IMG/VR virus record: IMGVR_UViG_3300046011_001449
Location: 1 to 21,404 of that record
Source of the DNA: a virus
Length of the DNA stretch: 21,404 nt
Direction: 5' to 3' (one strand)
Shown here piece by piece: positions 19,638-21,334 of this stretch. The notes beneath the pieces are model-generated. The model worked only from the letters and a program-made list of their open reading frames with translations. It was not told where the DNA came from and did no database searches. A program made the translations under genes and the position numbers. Each line of letters begins with the position of its first letter. The first letter of the stretch is position 1.

Positions 19638-19712
19638 CTGGTCAGAGATTGAAACAAAACTATAATCGATCCTAATTTTGCCTACTCTGACCAGTAGGAT
19701 TTAAGTTAGGAT
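19638..19712 (+). promoter_or_regulatory. Structured 5' leader RNA 1 (hairpin with loop-tail pseudoknot)
   Basis: Three helices can form. S2: ATCCTAATTT (19669-19678) with AAGTTAGGAT (19703-19712), 10 bp with one G-U. P3, nested inside it: CCTAC (19681-19685) with GTAGG (19694-19698), leaving the 8-nt loop TCTGACCA (19686-19693). S1: the 5' end strand CTGGTCAGAG (19638-19647) is complementary to CTCTGACCAG (19685-19694), which contains that loop. S1 and S2 are interleaved, so together they make a pseudoknot. A T-run (19712-19717) follows S2, so the hairpin can also be read as a terminator. TAGGAT at 19695-19700 is a second partner for ATCCTA at 19669-19674, an alternative fold. The element ends 16 nt before the ATG at 19729. 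Confidence 0.7.
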
Positions 19713-19728
19713 TTTTTAATTAAACATT

Positions 19729-20172
19729 ATGAGTAAAGATTTATTCCAGTTAATGCGACAACAAGAAATTGACACGCAAAATTTCCTCCCAAACAAACTA
19801 GAGATCCAGCTATCTGCAAAAACATTTATCAAAGAAGTGTTAGATGCTGGAGAGATTGACAAAATTGAACTACTAGCGCAAGCCAAACGAATGGGCGAAG
19901 CGTTAGATGTTATTAACGCTGAACTTATAAAAGTTCTCCCACAAGAGAACTTTGAGGGTTACGGACTAAAAGGCACATTCCGAAGCGGAGGGGAAACTAT
20001 CAACTTCAAAGATTGCGAAGTTTGGAGTGATATTAACAGAGAACTAAAAGAACGTGAGGACTTATTAAAGTTAGCTTTGAAATCGCAAAACGAAATATAC
20101 GATGCGGCTGGAGTTCAAGTTCCAAAAGTTAGTACAACGCCACGCAAAAGTAGTATGGCTATATCATTTTAA
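19729..20172 (+). CDS. Early/replication-region protein of unknown function
   Basis: A 147-residue, mostly helical protein: MSKDLFQLMRQQEIDTQNFL, KLEIQLSAKTFIKEVLDAGE, QAKRMGEALDVINAELIKVL, then a beta hairpin (YGLKGTFRSGGETINFKDC) and a long helix (DINRELKEREDLLKLALKSQ), ending with a flexible STTPRKSSMAISF. I do not recognise a family. It lies between a structured leader and an SSB-like gene and is followed by a VirE-N-like gene, suggesting a role in phage DNA replication or recombination, perhaps as a partner of the SSB-like protein. Confidence 0.65.
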   Translation: MSKDLFQLMRQQEIDTQNFLPNKLEIQLSAKTFIKEVLDAGEIDKIELLAQAKRMGEALDVINAELIKVLPQENFEGYGLKGTFRSGGETINFKDCEVWSDINRELKEREDLLKLALKSQNEIYDAAGVQVPKVSTTPRKSSMAISF

Positions 20173-20177
20173 TTTAA

Positions 20178-20251
20178 TATATTTACATTTCATAATTAAC
20201 CGATGCAAGGTTTGGGCATCTTAACTCCGATCCATAAACAAATATATTATT
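20178..20251 (+). promoter_or_regulatory. Promoter-like box and possible small pseudoknot leader before the SSB-like gene
   Basis: TATATTTA (20178-20185) is one base off the promoter box. Downstream, GATGC (20202-20206) pairs with GCATC (20216-20220); the enclosed GGTTTGG (20209-20215) can pair with CCGATCC (20227-20233), with one U-U mismatch and one G-U. The arrangement is an H-type pseudoknot with loops of 2, 0 and 6 nt that ends 18 nt before the ATG. It differs in design from leaders 1 and 2 and could arise by chance. TTAACCGAT (20196-20204) is partly repeated as TTAACTCCGAT (20221-20231). Confidence 0.35.
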
Positions 20252-20953
20252 ATGAGTACTTCAAACAGACGTGCAGCATTTGCACAACCACAAAGCAATC
20301 CAGCCACTAAGTTTATTGAGTGGAAATCAAACGACAAGTGTTTCAACTATTATGACAAGGATGCACAAAAGAACGTAGAAATACCTTTGCCTTTTAAGTT
20401 CTTAGTCTTAGATGAATTGCACACTATTAAAGGTTGGAATGATGCATCTGGAAGCAACATTTACTCCAACGAAGTGAAATTCATTTCAAAAGAAGTAATG
20501 ACAGTTAAACCTTTCAAGGGTAACGAAATTGCCAAAGGTTATTACAAAGACATTAAGGATAAAGTTGTAGCTGCTGGAGGACATTACACCAAGTCTATTT
20601 ATGTAATGCTTGAGGATGGTTCACTTGCTAATATATCACTAAAAGGATCTGGAGTTCAAAAGTGGGGCGACTTCACACAGAAAACACGCAATAGACTTGC
20701 AGATGAGTGGGTAATTGTAGCAAAAGCAGAAGATGGTAAAAAAGGAGCAGTTAAGTTCTCAACGCCAAGTTTCTCTTTTGCAAACTCTATATCTGATGAG
20801 GAAGCTAATATGGCAGACGAAGCGTTTAACATATTAGAATCATACCTTAAAACATACTTAGCAAAAGCAGACATTGATGTTGTATTAAATGGAGATATAG
20901 CAAATGACTTTAATGATATGCAGGATGCCGATGACGATGGATTAGACTTCTAA
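20252..20953 (+). CDS. Probable single-stranded DNA-binding protein
   Basis: A 233-residue protein. It begins MSTSNRRAAFAQPQSNPATK, a flexible basic start, then a beta-rich core (FIEWKSNDKCFNYYDKDAQK; LPFKFLVLDELHTIKGWND; VKPFKGNEIAKGYYKDI). The aromatic- and lysine-rich strands fit an OB-fold-like nucleic-acid binder. The last residues, MQDADDDGLDF, form an acidic tail with a final Phe, matching the tail that bacterial SSBs use to recruit partner enzymes. It lies between a small replication-region gene and a VirE-N-like gene. The fold is inferred; the tail is directly visible. Ends 20 bases before a strong terminator. Confidence 0.65.
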   Translation: MSTSNRRAAFAQPQSNPATKFIEWKSNDKCFNYYDKDAQKNVEIPLPFKFLVLDELHTIKGWNDASGSNIYSNEVKFISKEVMTVKPFKGNEIAKGYYKDIKDKVVAAGGHYTKSIYVMLEDGSLANISLKGSGVQKWGDFTQKTRNRLADEWVIVAKAEDGKKGAVKFSTPSFSFANSISDEEANMADEAFNILESYLKTYLAKADIDVVLNGDIANDFNDMQDADDDGLDF

Positions 20954-20972
20954 ACAAACAACACAACTAATT

Positions 20973-20998
20973 AAACCGCTATAACTAGCGGTTTTTTT
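20973..20998 (+). terminator. Strong intrinsic terminator after the SSB-like gene
   Basis: Perfect 9-bp stem AAACCGCTA (20973-20981) with TAGCGGTTT (20986-20994), 4-nt loop taac, then seven T in a row (20992-20998). Confidence 0.92.
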
Positions 20999-21266: not shown

Positions 21267-21334
21267 CTGGAAGCTATTGAGAAAATCTTATCAATGCCAC
21301 TCTTTCACGACTTCCAGCGTGTTTGAGTGGCATT
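21267..21334 (+). promoter_or_regulatory. Structured 5' leader RNA 2 (same architecture as leader 1)
   Basis: S2: AATGCCACTC (21293-21302) with GAGTGGCATT (21325-21334), 10 bp perfect. P3 nested inside: CACG (21306-21309) with CGTG (21318-21321), leaving an 8-nt loop ACTTCCAG (21310-21317). S1: CTGGAAG (21267-21273) at the 5' end is complementary to CTTCCAG (21311-21317), which lies in that loop. S1 and S2 are interleaved. Internal loops of three T on each side separate S2 and P3. The element ends 16 nt before the ATG at 21351. Confidence 0.75.

Follow-up and report, generated by a model that had tools for sequence, protein, structure and literature searches.

Can a phage protein that resembles an SSB repress its own translation through a pseudoknot in the leader of its mRNA? 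The question is raised by a single gene in the 21,404 nucleotides of viral DNA analyzed here (IMG/VR record IMGVR_UViG_3300046011_001449, hereafter the window). The accepted model for phage T4 is that gp32 nucleates on a leader pseudoknot and from there covers a region rich in UUAAA/UAAA as far as the ribosome-binding site (PMC535899; PMC3014915); what allows an SSB to discriminate between a pseudoknot and ordinary RNA is called unclear in PMC535899. The original prediction for this locus, made from the letters of the window, had proposed a possible gp32-like autoregulation of the SSB-like gene and, beyond this, that one SSB might govern several leaders.

Results

Organization of the SSB-like gene and its leader

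The SSB-like gene appears to be a one-gene unit, composed of a promoter box, a pseudoknot, a spacer, the ORF and a terminator-like hairpin (Table 1). The -7 promoter consensus of Bacteroidota is TAnnTTTG. An H-type pseudoknot can be drawn at 20202-20233, and its last base lies exactly 18 nt 5' of the ATG, at the place where a small pseudoknot had been anticipated. Stem S2 contains one U.U mismatch and one G.U pair, and the finder score is 23.5; among 600 dinucleotide shuffles made from leaders of this kind, 9 reach a score of 23. Nested folding of the window leader is no better than that of shuffles (z -0.62). Judged from the window sequence by itself, the pseudoknot is weak to marginal. It becomes certain because of the comparison with relatives, namely through covariation, specificity and conservation.

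Table 1. Position of the features of the SSB-like gene unit and of the neighboring leader pseudoknots in the window.
Feature	Position	Strand	Basis
Promoter-like box TATATTTA, Bacteroidota -7 type	20178-20185	+	sequence; -7 consensus
CATAAT, complement of the start-codon context 20249-20254; possible clamp	20191-20196	+	suggestive
Pseudoknot S1, 5' strand GATGC	20202-20206	+	drawn fold and covariation
Pseudoknot loop 1, AA	20207-20208	+	
Pseudoknot S2, 5' strand GGTTTGG	20209-20215	+	drawn fold and covariation
Pseudoknot S1, 3' strand GCATC	20216-20220	+	drawn fold and covariation
Pseudoknot loop 3, TTAACT	20221-20226	+	
Pseudoknot S2, 3' strand CCGATCC	20227-20233	+	drawn fold and covariation
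A/U-rich spacer with UAAA, 18 nt, up to the start codon	20234-20251	+	
Gene of the SSB-like protein, 233 aa, phrog_6706, acidic tail	20252-20953	+	
Terminator-like hairpin with T tail, 3' of the SSB-like gene	20973-20994	+	
Neighbor leader pseudoknot, before the ORF at 19729	19638-19712		
Neighbor leader pseudoknot, before the ORF from 21351	21267-21334		

Conservation and covariation of the leader pseudoknot

Relatives were taken from IMG/VR and GTDB contigs, of which the best 80 of 240 and the best 80 of 97 were kept. For 145 distinct leaders the upstream sequence was long enough to be used. Loci truncated close to the gene start, or lacking a start codon (L024, L055, L059, L073, L115, L206 and L254 among them), were left out, and L212, with only 36 nt upstream, was not counted. 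The same H-type pseudoknot (score of at least 22) was found in 128 of these leaders, ending 13-21 nt 5' of the ATG. It has an S1 of 4-7 bp, a loop 1 of 1-3 nt, an S2 of 7-8 bp and a loop 3 of 3-7 nt, and the 128 leaders represent 81 distinct cores, whose stems use 31 different sequences for the S1 strand and 46 for the S2 strand. Distant lineages, whose proteins share about 42-60% identity with that of the window, have the same geometry in unrelated sequence, with stems such as GCCG and GCGTTCA, GTAGG and TGCTTACA, or TCGG and GCTTATTT.

The 40 distinct cores of the main clade could be aligned without gaps (one row for each, L078 and L079 being left out). Among the 480 cells of this alignment 98.3% are paired, compared with 31-53% when the partner is slid by 1-3 columns; changes on both sides were seen in 10 of the 12 base pairs, and double-change cells number 80 against 11.9 in shuffles. 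None of 500 shuffles reached any of the five measures. Across the 128 leaders, 888 pairs are Watson-Crick, 85 are G.U, none is A.C and 8 are other; the frequency of G.U together with the lack of A.C points to sense RNA, in a count that is biased because the finder scores G.U above A.C. Promoter-like boxes ending 15 or 16 nt before S1 (68 matches over the 128 leaders) suggest that the pseudoknot probably lies near the 5' end of the mRNA.

Specificity for the SSB-like gene, and exceptions

A score of at least 25 combined with a distance of 12-24 nt to the ATG was found in 124 of 145 SSB leaders, whereas among 756 leaders of other ORFs at these loci only 5 qualified. When both strands of 1.04 Mb of DNA from related phages (123 loci) were scanned strictly, 99 matches resulted, and 96 of them lie 0-40 nt upstream of the SSB-like gene; the 3 matches elsewhere are similar to the shuffled rate (4 in a block-shuffled copy). 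The SSB-type pseudoknot also stays with the SSB-like gene across differing upstream neighborhoods. A chance origin is ruled out by the covariation and by the control leaders and scans. Comparison among relatives thus establishes, at the level of sequence, a real pseudoknot in the sense RNA that is fixed in place and restricted to the SSB-like gene.

The pseudoknot is missing in 17 of the 145 leaders, when a near miss (L149) and a weak case (L214) are counted as lacking it. The other 15 form one group (L060-L080), in which the SSB-like gene begins a few nucleotides after the upstream stop codon. The five representatives of this group in the tree cluster as a single clade (100/100 support) amid lineages that have the pseudoknot, a position that suggests loss in a tree whose root is unsure because the branch of mycobacteriophage Gaia is very long. 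In Gaia itself the SSB-like gene overlaps the preceding gene and has no leader.

The SSB-like protein

The 233-aa protein encoded by the ORF ends in DADDDGLDF. The acidic tail to which the original prediction had drawn attention is widely kept: 140 of 159 distinct complete relatives end in such a tail with F or Y as one of the final two residues, and so do 44 of the 702 other ORFs at these loci; by this comparison of sequences the tail can be called SSB-like. In five relatives the tip reads DIPF or DLPF, which resembles the tip of bacterial SSB. The window protein belongs to phrog_6706 (E 1e-31), as do all 10 diverse members that were compared; the PHROGs entry lists the function as unknown and names no leader. 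Searches against Pfam and NCBIfam returned nothing meaningful for the SSB-like protein, and PF00436 was unmatched by the window protein and the 10 diverse members. A sequence search of solved structures gave only marginal matches to unrelated proteins. Among viral structure predictions (BFVD), 36 matches at E of 0.001 or below are all unnamed or uncharacterized phage proteins except one, which carries the name of a Rho termination factor domain; a phage recombination directionality factor (RDF) is present among the viral matches at rank 47.

Two AlphaFold models (pLDDT 82 and 86) have a core rich in beta strands and a long C-terminal helix; their acidic tail is disordered, with low pLDDT from residue 207 or 210 onward. 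In VIA-align, where a Z under 8 may reflect only a common arrangement, the top structure for both models is the RDF of PhiC31 (9teh_I, Z 7.1-7.2), followed by the core of RB69 gp32 (Z 6.6 with both models, over 135 and 146 residues) and that of T4 gp32 (Z 5.3, second model); RPA70, BRCA2, POT1, Rim1 and other OB proteins rank lower at Z 3-5. Among SSBs, the RB69 and T4 gp32 proteins are thus the nearest structures. Foldseek against the PDB gave, for both models, no match with E below 0.001. The structure prediction that had been proposed as a check for an OB fold yielded an OB-like model, but one whose similarity to RB69 and T4 gp32 stays below the level of certainty by both programs. PhiC31-type RDFs and the SSB-like family may share ancestry, 9teh_I being the nearest solved structure.

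The gene context is that of replication. In L002 the gene 3' of the SSB-like gene matches a PrimPol model below its curated cut-off, and it shares the start MEYKIS with the window ORF from 21351; in mycobacteriophage Gaia the SSB-like gene adjoins a DNA polymerase/primase gene. A canonical SSB was found in none of 42 related records, which may be fragments, and the DnaB family in none of the 42 above the cut-off, with one weak match. Taken together, an OB fold and an SSB function of the 233-aa protein are supported but not proven.

The leaders of neighboring genes

The two neighbors of the SSB-like gene do carry the strong pseudoknot leaders that had been ascribed to them (Table 1), and their architecture differs from the SSB type. 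This second class has an S1 of 7-10 bp, a long loop 1 and an S2 of 7-12 bp, often with a T-run after the last strand. A scan for stems of at least 7 bp with a longer first loop detected it in 60 of 1598 leaders and in none of 1598 shuffled ones. It precedes PrimPol-like genes, the small ORF 5' of the SSB-like gene, HNH-like and GIY-YIG-like nuclease genes (names that rest on our reading of the sequences) and others; sites were seen in L010 (~6875), L026 (~6434), L031 (~9409 and ~11280), L037 (~4309), L059 (~4687) and L096 (~4140). S2 with its T-run resembles a terminator that holds the 3' strand of S1 in its loop, so that attenuation is possible for these leaders. The 147-aa protein encoded at 19729-20172, which adjoins the SSB-like gene behind a second-class leader, has no assigned family, and in L198 a relative of it sits downstream of the SSB-like gene.

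The presence of pseudoknots of another class on other genes implies that a pseudoknot leader need not mean an SSB. The idea that one SSB controls a set of leaders is not supported: the strict matches concentrate at the SSB-like gene, the neighbors belong to the other class, and control of several leaders through a shared architecture is ruled out by the strict scan and the second-class survey.

A possible start-codon clamp

Main-clade mRNAs contain CATAAT at the 5' end, which is complementary to the start context ATTATG. The mean score for pairing between the 5' segment and the start is 13.46 for matched leaders and 12.48 (sd 0.19) for swapped ones, with none of 200 swaps as high, and shuffled 5' segments fall far below (mean 9.83). 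Among 110 leaders, 61 possess the 5' element together with the matching start context, 24 have neither, 22 have the start context only and 3 the 5' element only. The two segments apparently co-vary in relatives, and the relatedness of the leaders may account for part of the association.

Discussion

A candidate autogenous operator and its alternatives

The leader pseudoknot probably serves a gp32-like autogenous repression of translation by the encoded SSB. According to this model, the 233-aa protein would be the replication SSB of the phage, made from a one-gene mRNA with its own promoter. Upstream of the AUG this mRNA would hold a coaxial H-type pseudoknot (S1 of about 5 bp, a loop of about 2 nt, S2 of about 7 bp, no gap, a loop of about 6 nt) and then an A/U-rich spacer free of structure. 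SSB in excess of free single-stranded phage DNA would bind the pseudoknot first and then spread along the spacer across the start codon, by which the 30S subunit would be blocked. What the relatives provide is an SSB-like protein with a gene-specific, covarying pseudoknot close to the geometry of gene 32, and to this extent the proposed autoregulation is supported, its extension to several leaders excepted; binding of the SSB to the leader, cooperativity and repression are steps that we infer.

It might be argued that the pseudoknot has a structural role at the 5' end of the mRNA, conferring stability against RNases or a fixed rate of translation with no binding of SSB. Its location some ten nucleotides after the predicted start of transcription would fit such a role, and the same phages place pseudoknots of the other class on many other leaders. 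However, one would look for a general stabilizer on further strongly expressed phage genes as well, whereas 96 of the 99 strict matches to the SSB type lie at this one gene, and the constant S2 of 7-8 bp with short loops seems to resemble a geometry made for recognition, so we regard this explanation as unlikely. It is rather improbable that the pseudoknot is the target of another factor, be it some other protein of the phage, one of the host, or a small ligand as in a riboswitch. Small H-type pseudoknots do bind ligands in known riboswitches, and the protein partner assumed here is one that we infer; but the element matches no Rfam family, shows hardly any invariant unpaired base across lineages, unlike a ligand pocket, and accompanies the SSB-like gene through different upstream neighborhoods.

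The identity of the protein can be questioned too. With the PhiC31 RDF as its best structural neighbor and the phage RDF at rank 47 of the viral matches, it could be another OB-like DNA-binding protein, such as an RDF or an annealing accessory protein, that represses its own mRNA via the pseudoknot. The widely kept acidic tip, the adjacent PrimPol-like gene and the lack of a canonical SSB in the 42 records make this very unlikely. The gene of a probable ssDNA-binding protein adjoins replication genes, and for the STAXI motif a reading as DNA has been considered (PMC2864571); an action of the element as single-stranded DNA, for instance as a signal for SSB loading or replication beside the gene, is nevertheless hardly credible in view of the frequent G.U and absent A.C pairs and the narrow spacing to both the promoter box and the start codon. 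We therefore retain autogenous repression by the SSB as the preferred explanation.

A wider conclusion can be offered only tentatively: phrog_6706 may represent a second family of phage SSBs with no sequence relation to gp32, in which a gp32-like pseudoknot operator is kept in most lineages, far more widely than in the T4-like phages examined, with its bases turning over completely at constant geometry, and in whose main clade the mRNA 5' end possibly pairs with the start codon and clamps the leader around the pseudoknot. If true, a so far unannotated phage protein family would gain a function, and 81 natural operator variants would be at hand for studying how an SSB chooses a pseudoknot over ordinary RNA. 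It would also suggest that SSB feedback through pseudoknots is very old or of more than one origin, and would show how such a switch works in hosts without Shine-Dalgarno sequences.

Comparison with known systems

Among the papers listed in literature searches for pseudoknot-based autoregulation of SSBs, those on the subject were of the T4 type, and a search for Flavobacterium phages together with pseudoknots gave no paper. The STAXI motif (RF01728) is a repeated pseudoknot of Enterobacteriales found near several kinds of DNA genes, Ssb included (PMC2864571). The element described here is likewise a pseudoknot near an SSB-like gene; unlike STAXI, it has no match in Rfam, where RF01728 is included among the families that the SSB-type pseudoknot does not match.

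Profile comparison revealed no sequence kinship with gp32: hhalign against ten gp32 proteins gave probabilities of 0.15 and 0.2. The zinc site of gp32 is built from one His and three Cys; the SSB-like family has no Cys at any invariant or nearly invariant position. The hosts differ as well, being here probably Bacteroidota (a phylum assigned from two GTDB contigs), which do not use Shine-Dalgarno sequences (PMC6847099). When ten gp32 leaders were run through the same finder, eight stayed below a score of 25, and only those of T4 and Klebsiella phage KPN6 reached it, compared with a pseudoknot in 128 of 145 leaders here. In T4 gene 32 the finder gave S1 of 4 bp, 1 nt, S2 of 7 bp, no gap and 5 nt, with the ATG 39 nt away, and in KPN6 a pseudoknot of nearly the same geometry lies 30 nt before the ATG; the spacer of 13-21 nt in the present family is shorter. 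TAAA occurs in 122 of the 128 spacers between pseudoknot and start, and is a weak point of the comparison because A/T-rich leaders often have it (345 of 635 leaders of other ORFs contain it within their final 18 nt). The likeness to gene 32 of T4 and RB69 lies in the overall plan: a pseudoknot 5' of the start of an SSB or SSB-like gene, a short S1 and a 7-bp S2 with no gap between them, a loop 1 of 1-2 nt, a loop 3 of about 5-6 nt, and an A/U-rich spacer with UAAA.
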